A stretch of DNA of 64,000 nucleotides from Lachnospiraceae bacterium. GTDB taxonomy: Bacteria > Bacillota > Clostridia > Lachnospirales > Lachnospiraceae. Each line of letters opens with the position of its first letter. Positions within the stretch are counted from its first letter, which is position 1. A program made the translations under genes and the position numbers. A model generated the notes under the pieces. That model had not been told where the DNA came from and made no database searches. It saw only the letters and a list, made by a program, of their open reading frames with translations. The DNA lies in assembly GCA_014239155.1 (NCBI GenBank), contig JAAZZQ010000088.1, forward strand, positions 1 to 64,000. Direction: 5' to 3'. This document shows, one piece after another, positions 3,114-62,846 of the stretch.

Positions 3114-3295
3114 CTCTTTTCCCCCTTTCAATAGCCTTTTAAAAAACAATAAAGAAATAACATATTATATAAGATTGTTCAGTTATCTCTTTGCTGTTTT
3201 TAATATTGTAGGATTCTTTTTGTCATCATACCCCACAGAGAAAAGTATTGTCAAGCGCTGCTTGAGTACGCCTTGCACAGAATTTGTTACAAATC

Positions 3296-3431
3296 GTAAC
3301 AGTTCAGATACCTTCACTGTTACAGGCAAAAATTCATGCAGAATCGCCTTTGGCGATGAATTTTTGCTTGCAACCACCACGTTTTCTTACGATATTTGCA
3401 GCGCAGTGCAAATACCTGTTTGAACTGTTAC
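3296..3431 (+). repeat. Structured repeat family B, copy 1 (sequence-diverged, structure-conserved)
   Basis: Outer arms GTAACAGTTCAG and TGAACTGTTAC enclose two hairpins. Arm 1 pairs CAAAAATTC (3327-3335) with GAATTTTTG (3358-3366), has a one-sided bulge ATGCAGA and an inner stem ATCGCC/GGCGAT. Arm 2 is GATATTTGCA/TGCAAATACC. Most stem bases differ from copy 2, yet pairing is kept. It abuts copy 2 directly. Together with copy 2 it fills most of the otherwise gene-free stretch 3114-3738. Confidence 0.85.
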
Positions 3432-3568
3432 GTAACAGTTCAGCCTTTGGCTTCCTGTTACAAGCATCAAGCCGTGCATAATCGCTTCGCGATGGCTTGA
3501 TGCATCTCAACTACTACGCTTTCCTACGGACTTTGCAGCGCAGTGCAAAGTCCTGTCTGAACTGTTAC
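3432..3568 (+). repeat. Structured repeat family B, copy 2
   Basis: Outer arms GTAACAGTTCAG...CTGAACTGTTAC, a left mini-stem option GTAACAG/CTGTTAC, arm 1 CATCAAGCC/GGCTTGATG with bulge GTGCATA and inner stem ATCGC-TTC-GCGAT, and arm 2 GGACTTTGCA/TGCAAAGTCC. It is almost identical to the copy at 55312-55448, 52 kb away. The remainder of the gap up to 3738 contains the ribosome-binding site and a TATAAT-containing A+T-rich stretch for the next gene. Confidence 0.9.
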
Positions 3569-3738
3569 ACTGTTACTACAAATCTTATATAACCCCCCTT
3601 GTTTATAATGAAAGGTTTTAAATGACAACGAACCATGACAAATTCAAGACATTCTTGCTGTATTTTTTGTTCCTTATGCGTTATAATTGAATTATAGTAA
3701 ACGCAAGCTGCAACAATGATACACAGGAGGAAGAAACA

Positions 3739-4563
3739 GTGATAGAGTTTTCTAAACGATTGGCAGACGCAAGAAAAGAGCAGGGTATGACACAGCGGGA
3801 AGTCGCAGAGCAATTAAATGTCTCTTTTCAGGCGGTCAGCTTATGGGAACGCGGAGAAACCTCACCAGATATTGACAAACTGGTGGAAATTGCATCTCTC
3901 TATCATGTAACGACTGACTGGCTGCTCTGTGGTATAAAAAAAGAAAATGTATTTATTGATTTTCAGGGCACACTTTCTGACAGACTATTTGATGAGGGAA
4001 AAATGTACACATACATTAAGACCTATGCCAGTGTAAAAAAATTGTATCAAACTTCCAAGGTTCTACCCTATGCGCGTGAACTTCACAAAGGACAAATTCG
4101 TAAAGGAAAGGATAGGGTTCCTTATATTTATCACCCACTTTTAATTTCTTGTCATGCACTTGCACTAGGATTAGATGATGACAATATAATCTCGACTGCC
4201 TTGCTTCATGATGTCTGTGAAGATTGTGGAGTTTCTTGCGAGGAATTGCCTGTCAATGAAGAAACACGAACAGCCGTTTCGCTTTTGACAAAAACAGATG
4301 ACGACGAAGACTATTACTTTACACAAATTTCTCAAAATGCCATTGCCACTATTGTCAAATTGTTGGACCGTTGTAACAATATTTCCAGCATGGCAGCAGG
4401 ATTCTCCAAAGAAAAAATGGTAGCGTACATCAAAGAAACAGAAAAATGGTTTTATCCGCTACTACAAAAAGCAAAATACGAATTCCCAATGTATTCAAAC
4501 CAAATTTTTTTAATAAAATATCATATGACAAGCGTGATTGAAGTGATCAAACATCAGACATAA
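3739..4563 (+). CDS. HTH (Xre) regulator fused to a SpoT/MESH1-like HD hydrolase domain
   Basis: Starts at a GTG eight bases after AGGAGG. Residues 1-65 form a Cro/C1-type helix-turn-helix (MTQREVAEQLNVSFQAVSLW). Residues about 110-215 carry the HD signature of RelA/SpoT hydrolases: ARELHKGQIRKG with H116, YIYHP with H132, LLHDVCED with H157-D158 and E161-D162, and KLLDRCNN with D210. There is no synthetase or TGS domain, so by family knowledge it would resemble small alarmone hydrolases that remove pyrophosphate from (p)ppGpp or related nucleotides. Coupling of that chemistry to a DNA-binding domain suggests an alarmone-responsive regulator; the substrate is not proven by sequence. It stands alone between repeat elements. 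Confidence 0.8.
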   Translation: MIEFSKRLADARKEQGMTQREVAEQLNVSFQAVSLWERGETSPDIDKLVEIASLYHVTTDWLLCGIKKENVFIDFQGTLSDRLFDEGKMYTYIKTYASVKKLYQTSKVLPYARELHKGQIRKGKDRVPYIYHPLLISCHALALGLDDDNIISTALLHDVCEDCGVSCEELPVNEETRTAVSLLTKTDDDEDYYFTQISQNAIATIVKLLDRCNNISSMAAGFSKEKMVAYIKETEKWFYPLLQKAKYEFPMYSNQIFLIKYHMTSVIEVIKHQT

Positions 4564-4580
4564 TCAAATCTCGCTAAATT

Positions 4581-4657
4581 CAAGAGTGCCACTGGCATTC
4601 TTGCTGCGACGTGCGGGGCAGCTCTGCTGACAGATTACAGATTCGCACGCCTGCAAT
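4581..4657. repeat. Dispersed repeat family A, copy 2
   Basis: A hairpin AAGAGTGCC-act-GGCATTCTT is followed by an imperfect arm pair GACGTGCG...CGCACGCC around an inner hairpin CAGCTCTGCTG. It matches 27621-27697 closely. It sits between two plus-strand genes, in the same plus orientation as the other copies. No T-run follows, so termination is not its obvious function. Confidence 0.75.
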
Positions 4658-4721
4658 AAAAAGAATAGAAGCAAAAAACCATTGATTTTAGGCAATGGAC
4701 AGTTCATTAGATTGGAGCACT

Positions 4722-7005: not shown

Positions 7006-7021
7006 ATTCCTTCTCTCCTTC

Positions 7022-7152
7022 CAACAGTTCAGCCTTTGGCTTCCTGTTACATGCATCAAGCCATGCATAATCGCTTCGCGATGGCTCGACGCGTCTCAAT
7101 CACTACATTATTTCACGGACTTTGCAGTAAATGCAACGTCCTGATTGGAACT
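7022..7152 (+). repeat. Structured repeat family B, copy 3, overlapping the 3' end of jetC
   Basis: Left part CAACAGTTCAGCC and mini-stem partner CTGTTAC are intact, arm 1 keeps CATCAAGCC, bulge ATGCATA and ATCGC/GCGAT, and arm 2 is GGACTTTGCA with TGCAACGTCC. The right outer arm is decayed (CTGATTGGAACT). The element separates jetC from rarA, and its right 45 bases encode the last 14 residues and stop codon of JetC. Confidence 0.85.
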
Positions 7153-10100
7153 ATTCCCTTCCAGCAGTTCAAGATAATTTCCCTTATCAATATGCATCAT
7201 CGAAATCCGATTTTGAAATCTCCGAAAACCATACACACAATCCACATTCCGAATCAGCGATTGTAATCGTTCATCTGGAACACAGACAATGAGCTGTAAA
7301 TCCATTTTGCGCGCATATTTTAGACAGACTGCACTGCGCTCCTGATCCATTTTGGAAAATGCTTCGTCAAGCAGCACCAACTTAATCTTGGAATCTCTGC
7401 TGCTCTGCGTGCTGTAAAGCATGGCAAAGCCAGCAAGCAATGCCACATACTTTGGATTTTGTCCCTCGCCTCCAGAGTCGCGCCCCGCCATTTCATCTAC
7501 ATAATTTTCTCGAATAACAATTCCATTTTCATCTGTCACCTGCTCATACATACTAAAAGAAAGATAGTTTCTGTAATCCGCATATGCCTCCATATCCCGA
7601 ATGCGCTGTTCTCGGATTCTTCCATCTTCCTCCCGCAGTGGCATAAACTTATCCGTCAATAGTTTTATTTTCTGTTCATATTTTTGATAGAAAGTATCTT
7701 CGCCAAGACTTATCTGTCCTTCTGTCAGTTCGGTATCAATATTTTTGCTGTCCAGTTCTGGCGCTGTCAACATCTCATAAAACTGTCCTTTTTCGTCTCT
7801 GGCTGGCTCAATTTTTATTTGATAGGTACTGTCCGCAAAGTTTGTTTCTCGCAACAACCTGTTGATTTCATGGGTATGCCGCTTTGCCGCATTAATATCC
7901 CCATGAATGGTTGCAATTACATTTTCCCGCAAACTTTTATATATTAGACTGCACTGTTTTTCAAATTCACTTTCATATTTTGGCTCATAATCCTTTTGAT
8001 AATCCTGTAACAGTCGGTCATACACTGTATTTTCCTTCTCTGCGCCATTAAAGCCAACCGATGGGTATTCCCTGTTAAAGCGGTTTCTGGCATTTTGAAG
8101 GGTCTCTATCTGTGCTTGTTCCTGCTCTTCCAAAGTGTTAATCTGTGTCAGTAATTTACTGCGTACCGTCTGGCTAGAACGCGTCTCTAACTGCTGCCGC
8201 ACTTCCTCCTCAATCTGCACATCTGCTTTGTACAGGGCACGTTTTTCTTCTAAATCGAGTTGCAGCGTCTTTAGCTCTCCTTCTCTATGGCTCTTTCTTC
8301 TGGTATACTCATTCATTAAATTCTGATTTTGACTTTGCTCCACCCGCTTGTTTTCTTTCTTTTCGGTTAGTCGGTCTTTACGCTCTTGAAGCTCCTTAAA
8401 CTCACCCTCTATAATCCGTGCAATCTCCTGCTGTAAGTCTGTGATTTGCCCTGTCACTTTATCCAGTTCTTTTCCTGCCTTTGACAGACGAATAAAATAT
8501 GCTGTGTCATTGTTTAAATCCTCAAATCCAGCCGCTGCCTTTAAACGGTCTGTCACACGCCGGACCTCTGCATATTCTTCCTCTCGTCTCTGCAACGTTT
8601 CGCAGTATCCTTCCAACTTTGCCTTTGATACCTTTGTGCCAATACACGCATAGCGCTCATAATCTGCCTTGCGCAAATGACGAAAAATAAAATTGCTGTA
8701 CGAGTAACAATCTGGTGTCACGCCATCCCGAACCCTTTCCAACTCCTCAGTTGTATAACATTTCTGTATTCTTCCTAAATATCTTTTTAGGCACGCATCC
8801 ATATAAGGAATTTCTGTTCTCACAGCCTCATACAAAGAATTATCCTCGACAGTTATTTTTTGTTTTAGAACTGCATTTGTATCAATCAGCTCAACTTCCT
8901 CATATTTTTTCATCTCGCGAAAAATTCTAGCCGCATCTTGTGCGTATTTTGGCTCTGTCACAAGAGAATGTTTCAATCGCCCTAATCTGCCCTCAATGGC
9001 GTTTTTCCACGCGGCATCATCCACATTAAACAAATCAGCAAAGATATTGACTTTAATCACACGCCCATAAGTGTCCGTCAACCTGCGCTCCAATGCCGCT
9101 CTTGCTTCTTTTAACACTGGCGAATAAGGTTTTCTATCATTTTGCATGTCGTCAATCAGACGAGTCAACTCTCGAATTTCTTTTTCCAAATCCCGCCGCT
9201 GTTCATTGTACTCCTCAAAAATCTCGTCAATCCCCTGCTTTGCATCCAGAATATTTTTCCTAAGATTTTGACACAATTCCTCATCCACTTTTCCTTTACA
9301 GAACAAAGCAATTTTATTGAGCATTGGATTGCTCACATAATCCGTGACAATCTCATCTTCCTCCCATTTGCGCAATCCATTTGTAATCTTGCGCCACTGT
9401 TCACTGTCCGCCGCATACATCTGCTGCAATTTGACAAGTTCTTTCAGCTGGTCCTGCTTTATCCCTACATCACTTGCTTTGAGTTCCGCCGATACCTGAA
9501 TTAATTCCCCGTCAATATCATTCATATCAACTTCAATTTTTTGAGCAATTTCTGCAAGGCGTGTCAACTCCTGTTCCGCATTTTGAATTTCCTCCTCATC
9601 TGCCGCAATCTTATTTTCAAGTTCTAAAACTTCCACACACTGTATCATTGCTTTAGACCGCAAAATATCTGTGCTGACCGCCGTCTTGCGTTTTCCTGCC
9701 TCCTGTACTTCACTCAAAAGTGTAATTCGCCTGCGCATATCTTTAATCTTTTCCTGAATATCGCGGTAAGCTCCAAGCTGTTCACTAATCTTTCCAATAA
9801 TGTCCCCATCATTTTTGGGAAACATATAGTCCTTGATAAACTGCCCTGTTCCATCTGTCATCTTGAGCGCAATCGCACTCTTTTCCATTACATGAAAACG
9901 CTTTCCGTCAATGTAGCCAAGCAAATTATCATAAAGTGCATTTGTGTACGCCTCCTTAGAAGGATAAATGCGATTTACATCACTGCGCCCTCGATTTTCA
10001 CTGCCTGAGGCGCGCTCGTCCACAAGTTTTCTAATCTCCTGATTGGTATACGGAAATCCTGCCTCTGTCAAATACCCCTGTTCGGGCATTCTGCCAGAAT

Positions 10101-27591: not shown

Positions 27592-27620
27592 CTTTTCTCT
27601 ACTCCTATCCTTTCCTAATC

Positions 27621-27697
27621 CAAGAATACCGTCAGCATTCTTGCTGCGGCATGCGGGTCAGCTCTGCTGACATATTACAGATTCGCACACCTGCAAT
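27621..27697. repeat. Dispersed repeat family A, copy 3
   Basis: Closely matches 4581-4657, including AAGAAT...GCATTCTT at the left, GTCAGCTCTGCTGAC in the centre and TTCGCACACCTGCAAT at the right. Orientation is plus, like the other copies, although the flanking genes are both on the minus strand. It lies between the stop of the HtrA-like gene and the start of yhaM. Confidence 0.75.
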
Positions 27698-27703
27698 AAA
27701 AAT

Positions 27704-29296: not shown

Positions 29297-29414
29297 TTTG
29301 TCACTGCCTCACTGATTTGTTTGTTTACCTTTTCCTAGTATAACGGATAGTGTTCCTATGGTCAATCTGTTTCGTAATAGAAAGCCTTCGTCTGATATAA
29401 CTTCATTTCTATTA

Positions 29415-29539
29415 CTGTTCACTCGGTTCCAGTAACAGTTGAAAATCCGTGCAAAATTTGCTTCACAAATGGATTTTTACTTACTATATGCATGTTTTTG
29501 TACGAACTTTGTAATAAATGCTAAGTCCTGTGTGAACAG
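29415..29539 (+). repeat. Structured repeat family B, diverged copy (copy 4)
   Basis: Outer arms CTGTTCAC and GTGAACAG, arm 1 AAAATCC/GGATTTT with bulge GTGCAAA and inner stem ATTTG-CTTCA-CAAAT, arm 2 GAACTTTG with CTAAGTCC. Few stem bases are shared with other copies but the order, sizes and bulge are the same. It occupies the divergent gap 29297-29653 between the HtrA-like and SGNH genes, together with the next promoter. Confidence 0.75.
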
Positions 29540-29572
29540 CAGCCTATTTCTGTCCCGCACCAAAAAAATACC

Positions 29573-47850: not shown

Positions 47851-47909
47851 CGTTACAGTTGCGTTTAGGACTTTGCATTTACTGCAAAGTCCTAAACGCA
47901 ACTGTAACG
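47851..47909. repeat. Perfect 27-bp-arm palindrome related to repeat family B
   Basis: CGTTACAGTTGCGTTTAGGA... (47851-47877) is the exact reverse complement of 47883-47909, with a 5-base loop. The core GGACTTTGCA/TGCAAAGTCC is the same as arm 2 of the B elements, and the ends GTTACAGTT/AACTGTAAC resemble their outer arms. No T-run flanks it. It lies between convergent genes. Confidence 0.85.
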
Positions 47910-53825: not shown

Positions 53826-55145
53826 TTATGCCACTTGTCGCTGGATAAATCCTTTTGTCTTCCATTTCCCTGATTGCCAGCGCAGGAACATAAACATAGC
53901 GCGCACGCACTCGTCTGTCGCAAGTCCTATATAAGCGCCCACCGACAACAAATTTAGGTGGATTCCAAAAAACCACGTACCGCCAACCATACACAAATAC
54001 ATAAACAGCACACCAATCACCGTGGTAAATACAGCGTCGCCACTGGTTTTTAGTGCCTGTCCAAACACCAAATTGGTCACACGCCCTATCTCAAGCACAA
54101 TATCAATTGCCAGCAGTGTTTTCACAAGTCGAATCATCTCCAAATCCTCTGTAAAAATCCGAATTAGCACATCTGCACTGACAAAAAACATGGTCTCCAA
54201 TCCTGCTGCCACAATGATTCCAATACATGCTGCCTTCTTTGTCCCCTTGTCGCAGGCTTCATAATCTCCCTCACCAATACGCCAGCCCGTCATAATAGCG
54301 TTTGCCTGTGCCAGCGCCGCCCCTGCACAGTAAGAAAAATTTGCAATCTGCGCAGCATACGCCCTTGCTGTCACATGAAATCCAGATTCGTCCATCTGAT
54401 TCAAAAAACGAATTGTCAAAGTCATTGCAACATTGTACAAGGCAGTTTCCAATGCAGAGGGAAGCCCAACTTTAATAATTTGGCGAAAAATTTCTATATT
54501 TTTTAATCGCTCTAAATCTTTGTTTGCTTTGACGAGCGCTTTTGATGCGACCATCACAATCACCAAATTTAAGATTCGAGAAAGGACAGTTGCCACCGCG
54601 ACACCTGCGACGCCCGCGTGCAATCCAAATAAAAAGATTGCATTTAAACCAAAATTGACTCCATTTGCCACAAGCGTTGCAATTAGTGGCTGTTTTGTAT
54701 AACCAAACGCGCGCAGATAACTAGAAAAAATTGGAATCAGCGCATTTAAAAAACAACATCCACCCACAATTTTTAAATACGTTTTGGCATAATCCATCAA
54801 AAGCGGTGCCACACCCACTACTTCCAATATTGTTCCTGAAAATACAAATAAAAAGATAGAGAGCACAATACCAATCACCGCGTTAAAAATCGCCCCTAAC
54901 TGTCTTGCCTGATAAGCGACGCCAATTCGCTTTGCCCCAATATACTGTGTCATCACAGCAATCATTCCCGACGACACTACATGAAACATAATAATAAACA
55001 CATTGATATATGTATTTGCCGTTCCAACCGCGCCGACTGCATTATCCCCTACCGTGGACAGCATAATTGTATCAATCATGCCTGCCAACATATAACACAA
55101 AGTTTCCAGCGCAATTGGTATATATAACTTTGTAAATGACTTCAT
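53826..55145 (-). CDS. MATE family transporter
   Basis: A 439-aa protein with about 12 membrane segments and MATE repeats (YMLAGMIDTIMLSTVGDNAVGAV; LIATLVANGVNFGLNAIFLF). It differs from the other MATE at 40047. Its start codon lies 20 bp from the left end of a structured repeat, and two such repeats in tandem occupy its upstream region, so any promoter must lie in or beyond them. Confidence 0.92.
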   Translation of the reverse strand: MKSFTKLYIPIALETLCYMLAGMIDTIMLSTVGDNAVGAVGTANTYINVFIIMFHVVSSGMIAVMTQYIGAKRIGVAYQARQLGAIFNAVIGIVLSIFLFVFSGTILEVVGVAPLLMDYAKTYLKIVGGCCFLNALIPIFSSYLRAFGYTKQPLIATLVANGVNFGLNAIFLFGLHAGVAGVAVATVLSRILNLVIVMVASKALVKANKDLERLKNIEIFRQIIKVGLPSALETALYNVAMTLTIRFLNQMDESGFHVTARAYAAQIANFSYCAGAALAQANAIMTGWRIGEGDYEACDKGTKKAACIGIIVAAGLETMFFVSADVLIRIFTEDLEMIRLVKTLLAIDIVLEIGRVTNLVFGQALKTSGDAVFTTVIGVLFMYLCMVGGTWFFGIHLNLLSVGAYIGLATDECVRAMFMFLRWQSGKWKTKGFIQRQVA

Positions 55146-55165
55146 TTATTTTCCCTGCCTTTGTG

Positions 55166-55302
55166 GTAACAGTTCAGCCCTTGGCTTCCTGTTACAGACA
55201 TCAAGCCATGCAAAACCACTTCGTGGTGGCTTGATGTATCTCTGCCACTACACAGTTTTACGGACTTTGCAGTAAATGCAAAGTCCTAGACTGAACTGTA
55301 AC
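55166..55302 (+). repeat. Structured repeat family B, copy 5
   Basis: Outer arms GTAACAGTTCAG/CTGAACTGTAAC; arm 1 CATCAAGCC/GGCTTGATG with bulge ATGCAAA and inner stem ACCAC-TTC-GTGGT, which differs from the ATCGC/GCGAT of other copies but still pairs; arm 2 GGACTTTGCA/TGCAAAGTCC. It is followed by CCTTTATGT and then the next copy. Confidence 0.9.
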
Positions 55303-55311
55303 CCTTTATGT

Positions 55312-55448
55312 GTAACAGTTCAGCCTTTGGCTTCCTGTTACAAGCATCAAGCCGTGCATAATCGCTTCGCGATGGCTTGATGCATCTCAACTACTACGCT
55401 TTCCCACGGACTTTGCAGCGCAGTGCAAAGTCCTGTCTGAACTGTAAC
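55312..55448 (+). repeat. Structured repeat family B, copy 6
   Basis: Nearly identical to 3432-3568, with only a few changed bases. It too is followed by CCTTTATGT, so the two units here form a tandem duplication of repeat plus 9-bp tail. With copy 5 it fills the 380-bp gap 55146-55525 between the MATE start and the GH13 stop. Confidence 0.9.
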
Positions 55449-55525
55449 CCTTTATGTTTCCTTGAAAGCATTTTTTGAAACATACTTTATTTCAAGCATA
55501 CTTTATTCAGAACTATATGTAGTTT

Positions 55526-57241
55526 CTACACAAGCACTACTGTTTCATAGGCTTCTAATGTCCCTGAAAATGGTTGTCCGCTCACAAGATTTTGTCTGCC
55601 TGCTAATTTCGCCAAATTTACCGTGTCTGCTTTTGTATGGAAAATTACAGTGATAGATTGATTGCCTAAATGTCTTGTAATGTAAAATAGCCCTTTCTTG
55701 TCATCTGTATACTGCTCTGTGATATTTCCTTTGGTTAGTGCTGGACAGGTGTGTCGAATGCGAATCAAAGTCTGATAATATTGCAATAAAGACTGATTCT
55801 GCCTGCTCTTATCCCAGAGCATACCGCGTCTGCAATCTGGGTCAGGTCCACCCTCAAGCCCCACCTCGTCACCATAATAAATCATTGGCATTCCCGGTAA
55901 CAGTAACTGCAAGGAAGCCGCTAGCATCTGCTTTCTAAAATCCTTTTGCGCACAGTTTATAAACCGTTCCGTATCATGTGTATCAATAAGGTTCCACAAA
56001 TATCCTTCCAGTTTTGTATGCAAATTTCCTTTCATAAAATTTAAGTTTCCCACAAAGGCAGAGATAGACATCTTTTGCGTCACAACCAAATCCATCACAG
56101 AACGAGAGAACTGATAATTCATAACACTATCCCACTCATCACCCTCCAAAAAATCTTCTGCAAAGTGCCAGATTTCACCGACAATTAACGCCTCTTTTTT
56201 TACTGCCTTTATCTCTCGTCGAAAGCGCTTCCAAAATGTGTGACTTACTTCATCTGCCACATCAAGGCGCCAACCATCTATATCGCACTCCCGAATCCAA
56301 TAAGACGCAACATCAATCACAAAATCTGCCGTCTCTTTATTTTGAAGATTTAGCTTTGGCATCTGTCCAGCATAGCTAAACGTCTTATAATTAGGCTTCT
56401 TACCCCACTCCATTATAAGCGGAAAGTCCTTGATATAATACCAATCCAGATAGGCGGATTGCTCTTTCTTCTCCAGAATATCCCGAAACGCAAAAAAATC
56501 CACTCCTGTATGGTTAAACACGCCATCTAAAATCACATACATGCCAAGCTTATGTGCCCTGTCAACCAGCTCTTTTAAGTCCTCTTTGTCGCCAAAAGAT
56601 GGGTCAATGTTATAATAATCGTCAATGTTGTACTTATGGCTGGAATTAGAACAAAAAACGGGTGTCATATAGAGAATATCTACTCCTAGCTCTTTTAGAT
56701 AATCCAGATGATTTATAATTCCTCGAAGGGAACCCTTCAAGTCTGCCTCGTGACCAATGGGGGCTTGATACCATATGTCTTCAGACACCTGTTTCTCTGT
56801 GGCAAATCGAGATGGAAAAATCTGATATAAGACCTTATTCTCCGCCCATTCTGGAAGTTCAAACAACTCTTCCTCTCTTAGAGTTTGTGGGCAGTCATAC
56901 ATCTTCTCAAGATCTGTAATACAAGTATCATAAAAGGCATGATTTCCGTAAAATGTCCTGCTTCCCGCTGTATCCTTAATCTCAAAGAAATACCGCATAC
57001 AGACCATATCAATTGTGACAACTGTCTCATAGTAGGTAATATAATTGTCAGAATAGGCAAGAGTCATCTCTTGTTCTTGTCTTGTATCCATTATTTTTAA
57101 AGGCAGGTACTTATCTTGTGTGTGAAGAATCACTTGTGCCACATCTCCCTTTTTCGTTTCCAGTCGAATTAAAAAATGTCCTTTCTCCACTGCATAACAA
57201 TATCTTTTATCCGCAAAATGTCTAATTGCCGCACACTCCAT
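55526..57241 (-). CDS. Glycoside hydrolase family 13 (cyclomaltodextrinase/neopullulanase type)
   Basis: A 571-aa alpha-amylase-family enzyme. Start at 57241 has GGAGG seven bases upstream. An N-terminal beta domain like CBM34 (about 1-110) precedes the barrel. Catalytic segments are WRLDVADEVSH (nucleophile Asp), ALIVGEIW (acid/base Glu) and DTHDTERF (third Asp), with GVFNHTGVDFFAF as the first conserved region. No signal peptide, so it cleaves imported maltooligosaccharides or cyclodextrins. It is divergent from an AraC-type regulator and two inverted repeats lie in between. Confidence 0.92.
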   Translation of the reverse strand: MECAAIRHFADKRYCYAVEKGHFLIRLETKKGDVAQVILHTQDKYLPLKIMDTRQEQEMTLAYSDNYITYYETVVTIDMVCMRYFFEIKDTAGSRTFYGNHAFYDTCITDLEKMYDCPQTLREEELFELPEWAENKVLYQIFPSRFATEKQVSEDIWYQAPIGHEADLKGSLRGIINHLDYLKELGVDILYMTPVFCSNSSHKYNIDDYYNIDPSFGDKEDLKELVDRAHKLGMYVILDGVFNHTGVDFFAFRDILEKKEQSAYLDWYYIKDFPLIMEWGKKPNYKTFSYAGQMPKLNLQNKETADFVIDVASYWIRECDIDGWRLDVADEVSHTFWKRFRREIKAVKKEALIVGEIWHFAEDFLEGDEWDSVMNYQFSRSVMDLVVTQKMSISAFVGNLNFMKGNLHTKLEGYLWNLIDTHDTERFINCAQKDFRKQMLAASLQLLLPGMPMIYYGDEVGLEGGPDPDCRRGMLWDKSRQNQSLLQYYQTLIRIRHTCPALTKGNITEQYTDDKKGLFYITRHLGNQSITVIFHTKADTVNLAKLAGRQNLVSGQPFSGTLEAYETVVLV

Positions 57242-61265: not shown

Positions 61266-62789
61266 TCACTCTATCTCTGAATCCATACCAACCGCTACAC
61301 CAAACACTTCCCAAGCGCCAGACGCCTCACACTGCATTCTTGCCCCCCACTTGGACACATCATCACCGCAGTACTCTGCTATCATCTCATAGGGAATATA
61401 CGCCTTGCTGCCATCTGTAATCGCTTTGCCGTTGGTGCCGTCACCTACTCGCATCCAGCCTGCCTCCGCATCAGGAAGTACAAGCCACATATCACCACTT
61501 TCGCTTGTGTAAGTCACCTCGACAACAGAACCCGGCACAAGCGCTGTAAGAATATCCTCTGTCATATCCTTGCCATCCTGTGCCCAGCCGTCACCTTTTG
61601 TCGCAAATCCCTCAAATTCCACTGTGTCTGTAAGACTGTAACTCTTTGCAGCCTGACCAACTTTCACACTGAACACTTCCCAAGCGCCAGACGCCTCACA
61701 CTGCATTGTTGTGCCCCACTTAGAAACGTCATCACCGCAGTATTCCGCTAACATCTCAAATGGAATCTGTGCGGTTGTCTTGGAATCATTGACTGCGGAA
61801 CTTCCGTTGGTGCCATCGCCTACGCGCATCCAGCCAGCTTCCGCCTCATTCATAACAATCCACATATCACCGTTTTCGCTTGTGAAGGAAATCTCAACAA
61901 CAGAACCTGGTACAAGTGCAGCAAGAATATCCTCCGTCATAGCAAAACCGCTCTGTGCCCAGCCATCACCTTTTGTTGCAAAACCTTCAAATTCCACTGC
62001 GTCTGTTACATTTGCAAGATTGGATCGATCCTCCCCTGTTGCAGTTGACACATACTCTGCTGTAGTATCTGCTGCAATAACATTTCCAGAAGCATCTTTA
62101 AACGCAATATTGTCTATATACAAAATTGCAGGCGTAGCACCCGCATCCTTGCCATTGTCTGTCTCAAGGGATACAACCATATAATTGCCCTCTCCAAAAG
62201 ACATTTCATCAGGAACCGCATAGACTGCTGTCTTGGGATTTGCTGTTTCCAAATATACAGACCAATCCCCATCTTTGCGCTCATTCTCTGCTCCAAGAAA
62301 CGCATATATTTTTCCGGATACCGCGTTAAATTCACCGTCAGGATTTTCAATGCCAAGTGACATCTCTACTGTCTTTACATTCGCTGCTTTATCGCCTAAA
62401 AGTGCATCTACTTGGATTCCCACATAAGGTATCTTTCCATTAGACTCAACTTTCAATGCCTTAGACCCGCCAAAATCAGCTATGGAAAGCGTGGAATCGT
62501 CTCCTACTGGATTTACGCTCTTGTCAACGCCCACAAATCCATAGACACCATCTTCAAAGTCAATGCTTACCTCTCCCACAGGAGCTGCCGTCTGCGTATT
62601 CGCAACTGGTGTTGTCTTTGCAGATGTTGTCTCTGCTGTCGGTGTGCTCTCCGCAACAGATGTCTCTGTATTTGCCTGTACAGTTGCATTCGTATCTTTT
62701 GCATTGTCTGTACCTTTGCCGCCACATGCAACCACACTCATTGCCATAGCCGCTGCCAAAGATAAAGTGATTCGTTTTTTTGTTTTCAA
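61266..62789 (-). CDS. Lipoprotein with tandem carbohydrate-binding-like modules
   Basis: About 507 aa. AGGAGG abuts the ATG at 62798, so a TTG three codons later (62789) has the better spacing; both give a signal ending SVVAC. After an Ala/Thr linker there is a beta-rich module (about 75-230, EVSIDFEDGVYGFVG) and two ~110-residue repeats (about 258-375 and 385-505) that both begin VEFEGFATKGDGWAQ and end with a QCEASGAWEVF motif. The repeats are ~80% alike by eye. No catalytic residues are apparent. I infer a surface glycan-binding protein that presents glycan to the ABC transporter; family of the modules is not named. Confidence 0.75.
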   Translation of the reverse strand: MKTKKRITLSLAAAMAMSVVACGGKGTDNAKDTNATVQANTETSVAESTPTAETTSAKTTPVANTQTAAPVGEVSIDFEDGVYGFVGVDKSVNPVGDDSTLSIADFGGSKALKVESNGKIPYVGIQVDALLGDKAANVKTVEMSLGIENPDGEFNAVSGKIYAFLGAENERKDGDWSVYLETANPKTAVYAVPDEMSFGEGNYMVVSLETDNGKDAGATPAILYIDNIAFKDASGNVIAADTTAEYVSTATGEDRSNLANVTDAVEFEGFATKGDGWAQSGFAMTEDILAALVPGSVVEISFTSENGDMWIVMNEAEAGWMRVGDGTNGSSAVNDSKTTAQIPFEMLAEYCGDDVSKWGTTMQCEASGAWEVFSVKVGQAAKSYSLTDTVEFEGFATKGDGWAQDGKDMTEDILTALVPGSVVEVTYTSESGDMWLVLPDAEAGWMRVGDGTNGKAITDGSKAYIPYEMIAEYCGDDVSKWGARMQCEASGAWEVFGVAVGMDSEIE

Positions 62790-62846
62790 TTTTCTCATCC
62801 TCCTTTTGATTAAAACAGACTCTTAAAACCTATTGAAAATTAGTTT

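Follow-up and report, generated by a model that had tools for sequence, protein, structure and literature searches.

A dispersed three-hairpin repeat of Lachnospiraceae is a gene-less MITE, probably mobilised by IS66-family transposases

Between positions 3,296 and 3,568 of the 64,000-nucleotide stretch of Lachnospiraceae DNA analysed here (the window), two similar hairpin-rich segments stand end to end, and four related segments lie elsewhere in the same stretch. The locus raises the questions of what kind of element this is, what spread it, and why its stems stay paired while their letters change. The original prediction, made from the sequence alone, left the first question between a non-autonomous mobile element, a substrate of a REP-type transposase and an RNA class.

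Repeat search and placement on a covariance model confirmed that the window holds six copies of an element of about 137 bp, at 3296-3431, 3432-3568, 7021-7157, 29411-29543, 55166-55302 and 55312-55448 on the model. All six lie on the plus strand, as had been observed at the outset, and both orientations occur genome-wide. The arms, one-sided bulge, inner stem and linker that had been described are present in each copy, most clearly in four and least clearly in the decayed copies at 7021 and 29411. The common plan consists of hairpin H1, hairpin H2, a linker, hairpin H3 and the right end. H1 is the left end itself (GTAACAG...CTGTTAC), and H2 has a long stem with a 5'-side bulge of 6-8 nt, an inner stem and usually a three-base loop. 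The features of the window are as follows; the TIR+TSD scan looked for terminal inverted repeats with target-site duplications.

3288..3295, no strand: left target-site duplication TACAAATC of the outer copy 3296-3431 (sequence; TIR+TSD scan)
3296..3431, plus strand: MITE copy, subfamily C, with stem CAAAAATTC/GAATTTTTG (repeat search, covariance model)
3424..3431, no strand: ACTGTTAC, the final 8 bp of the outer copy, used as target by the inner one (sequence)
3432..3568, plus strand: MITE copy, subfamily A, inserted into the end of the 3296 copy (BLAST, covariance model)
3432..3461, plus strand: hairpin H1, 3432-3438 with 3455-3461 (covariation, folding)
3432..3443, plus strand: left terminal inverted repeat, overlapping H1 (sequence)
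3464..3503, plus strand: hairpin H2, outer stem 3464-3473/3494-3503 (covariation, folding)
3474-3480, plus strand: H2 bulge GTGCATA (covariation, folding)
3481-3485/3489-3493, plus strand: H2 inner stem (covariation, folding)
3486-3488, plus strand: H2 loop TTC, GAA on the complement (covariation, folding)
3528..3553, plus strand: hairpin H3, stem 3528-3537/3544-3553 (covariation, folding)
3557..3568, plus strand: right terminal inverted repeat CTGAACTGTTAC (sequence)
3569..3576, no strand: second ACTGTTAC, the target duplication of the inner element (sequence)
3577..3584, no strand: right target-site duplication TACAAATC of the outer copy (sequence; TIR+TSD scan)
7021..7157, plus strand: decayed MITE copy, subfamily A, between two minus-strand ORFs, with no clear duplication
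29411..29543, plus strand: decayed MITE copy, subfamily F, with ends ATTACTGTTCAC/GTGTGAACAGCAGC and flanking 8-mers alike at 6 of 8 positions
47852..47908, no strand: inverted repeat whose 26-bp arms match perfectly and enclose a 5-bp centre, an H3-like hairpin between two MITE right ends
55166..55302, plus strand: MITE copy, subfamily A2, duplication CCTTTGTG/CCTTTATG (7 of 8)
55312..55448, plus strand: MITE copy, subfamily A, with CCTTTATGT on each flank

The home genome (G000; 4.57 Mb in 89 contigs, 98.4% complete) contains many more copies. Element 3432-3568 used as a query gave 44 BLAST matches there, and a covariance model made from 38 own-genome copies gave 144 matches (E <= 0.1) among 150 places scored; one place among the 144 (C82:37369) matched on both strands, and the lowest-scoring matches are incomplete or decayed. 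Sequence was in hand for 138 of the 144, which we used for the work on target duplications and context. The copies fall into at least seven subfamilies, split by eye and with alignments to consensus sequences written by hand. Searching relatives with the model, as had been proposed, did produce further copies: the element is present in 31 of 36 genus genomes (home genome counted) and in 40 of 299 family genomes from 298 genera, and model search of 24 genomes belonging to the order's other families found none. These searches scored at most 55 (genus, order) or 11 (family) places per genome, under stricter filters. The exact 21-mer of the left end occurs in at least 112 stretches of named records, whose titles are mostly Lachnospiraceae and include Mediterraneibacter agrestimuris and Hominisplanchenecus murintestinalis. 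Element 3432-3568 had no match in the phage and plasmid collections at E 1e-5. Separately, four IMG/VR contigs (L454, L455, L456, L457) carry the exact left-end 21-mer. Among the matches listed in the open-licence literature, judging by titles and abstract openings, there is no account of this repeat family.

The repeat is a gene-less MITE, a mobile double-stranded DNA, because it has terminal inverted repeats, 8-bp duplications, a nested insertion and a site that is empty in relatives; the first of the three original suggestions was thus the correct one. The 137-bp unit ends in GTAACAGTTCAG/CTGAACTGTTAC, carries no gene and is dispersed in many copies. The 8-mers flanking the 138 home copies match exactly in 46 cases, where mismatched flanks would give 0.03, and at 7 or more of 8 positions in 71 (expectation 0.39). 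An exact abutting repeat of at least 5 bp was found at 51 copies, and in 46 of these it is 8 long. Flanks also match at 7 or 8 of 8 positions in 55 of 72 copies from other genomes, a set from which 42 copies had been dropped (40 without a recognisable right end, one at an edge and one duplicate).

Two loci of the window show insertion directly. The copies at 3296 and 3432 are a nested pair, in which the inner copy duplicated ACTGTTAC and the outer copy retains TACAAATC on both sides. For the 55166/55312 site, we joined the flanks and searched 38 genus genomes, since empty sites in relatives had been named as a check. In G016 the joined flanks align through in one piece (79%, 653 bases), and in G022 and G023 they lie 14 and 8 bases apart, with no room for a copy; other matching genomes gave one flank only. 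Local alignment left the exact G016 junction unplaced, and the junction is too little conserved to show a single target copy.

A pair resembling the one at 55166/55312 was seen elsewhere in the home genome: at C8:177406-177538 and 177547-177679 (L307), consecutive subfamily E copies have one 8-bp unit between them and the same unit, or a near copy, on their outer sides. The inverted repeat at 47852-47908, around which no duplication was seen, is a possible end-to-end MITE derivative.

What moved the element? The ends GTWAC[AT]GTTCA and the 8-bp duplication pointed to IS66, a lead that we then tested. The MITE ends agree with those of IS66-family elements in relatives of the host; GTTAC[AT]GTTCAC/G ends were found in L240, L256, L380 and L387/L406. 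Elements L240, L252, L245 and L256 came from a search with PF03050 (IS66 transposase), and L380, L382, L385 and L387/L406 from a second search with the L240 protein, itself a PF03050 match at E 3.9e-25.

L240 (IS66): ends GTTACTGTTCAC, exact 8-bp target-site duplication GCTGCTTT
L252 (IS66): ends GTTACTTTTCAC, exact 8-bp target-site duplication TATCAATA
L380 (IS66): ends GTTACTGTTCAC/G, exact 8-bp target-site duplication GCCGGAAT
L387 and L406 (one IS66 element): ends GTTACAGTTCAC, exact 8-bp target-site duplication GTATTAGA
L245 (IS66), cut by the contig end: GTTACTATTCAC
L256 (IS66), a broken copy: GTTACAGTTCAC

The GTTACTGTTCAC and GTTACAGTTCAC ends of these elements are like those of the MITE. 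Subfamilies E and F end in GTTACTGTTCAC and subfamilies A to D in GTWACAGTTCAG, near the two IS66 end types. A published element points the same way: ISDge4, of the ISBst12 group of IS66, is described with ends GTGACTACTCAGCA and GTAACTGCTCAGCA and an 8-bp repeat (PMC12898284), and its GTAACTGCTCAGCA end and 8-bp duplication resemble the GTAACTGTTCAG end and duplication of the MITE. Within the genus, PF03050 matches occur in 16 of 35 genomes, namely 16 of the 30 that have the MITE versus none of the 5 that do not (Fisher p 0.049).

Several observations weigh against IS66 mobilisation. The home genome contains no PF03050 match. The MITE, which lacks a transposase gene, differs from the IS66 elements in that only the outer 11-15 bp are common to both, and in L382 and L385 (IS66) the ends match while the flanks are unlike. 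In the family sample of 299 genomes, the L240 protein was found in 26 and the MITE model in 40, with both in 2 (G084, G116), which is only the chance level (3.5). The co-occurrence evidence from genus and family together is mixed. No autonomous element emerged when 233 sequences were put through the TIR+TSD scan; the scan's hits longer than 220 bp were eight rows of 280-389 bp, which we read as probable nested or tandem MITEs from inspection of the window pair and the L033 locus. Because of the end sequence and the duplication length, we nevertheless assign the element to the IS66 type, and mobilisation by IS66-family transposases is the likely explanation of its spread.

Other candidates were tried and rejected. 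Two right ends without a model partner were considered as possible autonomous parents: at C11:52480 no transposase was seen by eye among the surrounding ORFs, and at C63:29370 the automatic scan gave none. For IS256 (PF00872), 30 loci yielded no end pair with an 8-bp duplication in a scan that demanded end matches at 12 of 16 bases together with exact duplications, and so may miss elements. A REP-associated (RAYT, Y1/HUH) or IS200/IS605 transposase, to which dispersed, mainly intergenic hairpins with bulges would be suited and which the original prediction had offered in its REP-type form, is very improbable given the 8-bp target duplications, the terminal inverted repeats and ends common to the DDE-type IS66 elements; HUH/Y1 transposition is, to our knowledge, not accompanied by target duplication.

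The interior of the element folds. When the plus strand was folded as DNA, five of the six window copies beat all 200 dinucleotide shuffles (z -3.8 to -6.8); the exception, copy 29411, is not unusually stable (z -1.6, with 13 of 200 shuffles equally good). Among the 38 own-genome copies, two-sided change occurs at 16 of 31 pairs versus 6.0 in shuffles, and none of 500 shuffles reaches the observed count. The shuffle control ignores relatedness, and a second control with slid partners, which preserves it, gave 2 to 6 such pairs. The claim that sequence shifts while pairing stays thus held up against both controls, and the second one opposes the objection that the covariation is no better than expected from similarity. 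In the other-genome set all four Watson-Crick pairs occur at some stem positions (for example, TA 44, AT 11, CG 10, GC 1). The unpaired AT..AAA bulge and the C-GNA-G loop of the complementary strand are largely fixed while the stem letters change.

It had also been proposed that the left GTAACAG can pair either nearby or with the distal arm. Both pairings can form, but their histories differ: the local H1 pairing covaries (at column 6: AU 28, UA 8, GU 2, broken 0), whereas at that column the long-range pairing of left end with right end is lost in 16 of 37 copies.

Why, then, is the fold kept? The sequence footprints show insertion with 8-bp duplications; under the mechanism that we propose, IS66-family transposases would bring it about by acting in trans on the MITE ends. 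The mobile lineage would retain H1, H2 and H3 through the use of a folded DNA strand in transposition. The folded form may be a hairpin or a cruciform, probably of the complementary strand, and could serve recognition by the transposase or a host factor, or the joining of the ends of a very short element. Resident copies would afterwards decay one side at a time, mostly uncorrected. We propose tentatively, at slightly short of an even chance, that the hairpins are kept for the role of a folded DNA strand in transposition. A more specific version is doubtful at present: a DDE-type (IS66) system whose shortest substrates are obliged to fold. In it the complement would make three hairpins, one of them with the C-GNA-G loop and a bulge of about 7 nt (AT..AAA on the other strand), and the transposase or a host factor would read shape rather than stem sequence; if true, this would be a shape-recognised cut-and-paste or copy-and-paste transposon.

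Three asymmetries, in the inner loop, the G-T mismatches and the gene orientation, point to the complement of the strand on which the original prediction had drawn its fold. For the loop and bulge we counted copies in which H2 with perfect stems was recognised (56 of the 138 own rows and 56 of the 71 from other genomes). A GNA inner loop stands on the complement in 49 of 56 copies from other genomes and in 36 of the 56 own copies; a C-G pair closes 48 of the former and 35 of the latter. The seven-base bulge opens with AT in all 44 cases (44 of 44) from other genomes and in 38 of the 48 from the home genome, 46 of these 48 having AT or GT. A GNA loop with at least two G-C pairs makes very stable DNA mini-hairpins (PMC4686876). 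Folding energies slightly favour the complement in 76 of 102 copies treated as DNA and in 73 of 102 treated as RNA. Some results count against a DNA-structure step: the loop is AAA, not GNA, in 14 of 56 own-genome copies, and energy parameters that may miss the special GNA loop put the isolated inner hairpin 0.3-0.5 kcal/mol lower in stability on the GNA strand for 5 of 5 tested.

Wobble pairs bear on whether the pairing is kept at the level of DNA or of RNA. They are scarce across genomes. The 68 distinct rows from other genomes (rows 1-71 of 81, the ten weakest or partial left out) have GU 15 and AC 29 among 2074 cells, and RNAalifold on a cross-genome re-alignment gave GU 1.0% and AC 0.7%. 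By the same procedure, a control of 20 TPP riboswitches from the same bacterial family gave GU 10.9% and AC 0.9%. Wobble is not absent everywhere, which is a further point against the DNA-structure step: the 38 own-genome copies show GU 4.8% and AC 1.9% on the plus strand and GU 5.8% and AC 1.4% on the complement (RNAalifold), and 31 divergent rows show GU 3.0% and AC 0.8% on the complement (GU 19 versus AC 5, p 0.007). G-T mismatches on the complement are somewhat commoner than A-C, within subfamilies significantly by cells and not by distinct events: one-sided changes read on the plus strand comprise 118 GU and 171 AC cells (p 0.002), or 70 versus 84 distinct events (p 0.29).

The main alternative is that the hairpins act as RNA, the complement lying in mRNA between tandem genes and altering mRNA stability or expression of the next gene, so that selection keeps the stems. 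Gene context lends it some substance. In the home genome the element stands antisense to tandem gene pairs at 52 sites versus sense at 26 (p 0.004, ORFs of at least 150 aa), with 61 versus 35 at a cut-off of 100 aa and 39 versus 19 at 200 aa; in other genomes the counts are 32 versus 11 (p 0.002). The complement is thus the mRNA-like strand at 52 of 78 home and 32 of 43 other-genome tandem sites. Of the home-genome tandem sites, 24 of 52 with the element antisense have a start codon within 60 bp of it, versus 1 of 26 with the element in sense (p 8e-5). The excess of G-U on the complement over the plus strand also favours the RNA reading (171 versus 118 cells within subfamilies, 29 versus 15 in other genomes with p 0.049, and 19 versus 5 in the divergent rows), but G-T is a comparatively stable mismatch in DNA as well, which counts against reading the strand asymmetry as RNA.

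For these counts genes were ORFs of at least 150 aa only, so individual cases may be wrong; the home-genome orientation counts were made with an artificial stop-rich string substituted for the element, and stop distances come from the real sequence. ORF calls on the real sequence place 4 of 138 copies inside an ORF. For genes whose 3' end points towards the element, the stop codon lies at most 15 bp before it in 30 of 101 cases and inside it in 23 of 101. Convergent sites are rare (2 versus 22 divergent in the home genome, 4 versus 7 in other genomes).

An RNA role is nonetheless unlikely. Wobble makes up just 1-3% in the cross-genus sets versus 11% in the TPP control; simple scans of the element found no conserved promoter or terminator; and the start-codon effect, though in the same direction in the second set (9 of 32 antisense versus 1 of 11 sense), is not significant there. 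Terminator-like sites numbered two in 3250-3760 on the plus strand, against 0.5 in shuffles, and none in 55100-55560. Rfam gave no match at the gathering score in the window and none at E <= 10 in 3200-3700. With few wobble pairs across genomes, no Rfam match in the window and asymmetries that favour the opposite strand, the RNA class of the original prediction was not borne out.

It is also conceivable, though we think it improbable, that the pairing is unselected, with perfect stems maintained by intrastrand template switching (quasipalindrome correction), in which one arm serves as template for the other. In one copy, C82:37369-37519 (L062), the inner part of H2 is inverted in place, as an arm-to-arm switch would give, and hence the model matches it on both strands; this suggests that such switching does occur. 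We counted changes within subfamilies for 124 of the 138 copies, those with identity of at least 0.68 to a hand-written subfamily consensus. Compensated changes are almost all Watson-Crick (81 versus 2 G-U), as correction would also produce. However, 434 cells changed on one side only, versus 81 two-sided Watson-Crick and 22 two-sided broken cells, so that resident copies carry many uncorrected changes. Switching alone also leaves the bulge position and its mostly constant AT (44 of 44, 38 of 48) unexplained.

Retention of the hairpins through a folded DNA strand has a parallel in integron attC sites, where the folded strand is recognised, unpaired bases are conserved and stem sequence is free. 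The analogy extends to possible shape recognition, and it stops at insertion, which for this element occurs with 8-bp duplications. REP and REPIN elements with RAYT are likewise high-copy intergenic hairpins; we know of no target duplication for them, unlike the present element with its 8-bp duplications and IS66-like inverted repeats. RUP is associated with IS630 and with duplication of TA. MITEs are usually regarded as deletion products with an unimportant interior. RUP, Correia/NEMIS, ERIC and YPAL (PMC2229807) are similarly small, dispersed, palindromic and often intergenic, and differ in ends and hosts. MITEAba12 (PMC6382973) and MITEPsy1 (PMC3189936) are also alike, being gene-less, about 100-140 bp long, and provided with IS terminal repeats and target duplications, which for MITEAba12 were reported at 40% of 90 copies (PMC6382973). 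MITEAba12, however, duplicates 9 bp, is predicted to be weakly structured and shows no preferred orientation (PMC6382973), and MITEPsy1 has a 4-nt duplication (PMC3189936). In contrast to both, this element has a three-hairpin plan that holds across genera, a nearly fixed bulge and loop, and a gene-orientation bias.

The novelty lies in a folded plan and unpaired parts that outlast much of the stem sequence. One interior plan persists despite many stem changes in 40 genomes of a sample covering 298 genera, so its shape may be what is read. The scarcity of wobble relative to a riboswitch control offers a simple test of DNA-level versus RNA-level pairing constraint in repeats put forward as candidate RNAs. 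With more than 100 copies in one genome, some near stop or start codons, the element may in addition contribute regulatory variation in a bacterial family common in the gut.

Two other kinds of repeat were seen in the window. A second dispersed repeat of about 85 bp lies at 147-232, 4577-4662 and 27617-27702; it has at least 40 matches in the home genome, and one of its copies sits inside a MITE copy at C57:6158-6237. At 61274-62006, within the ORF 61266-62798, there are two direct repeats of 203 and 124 nt, 81-82% alike and 375 and 369 nt apart.
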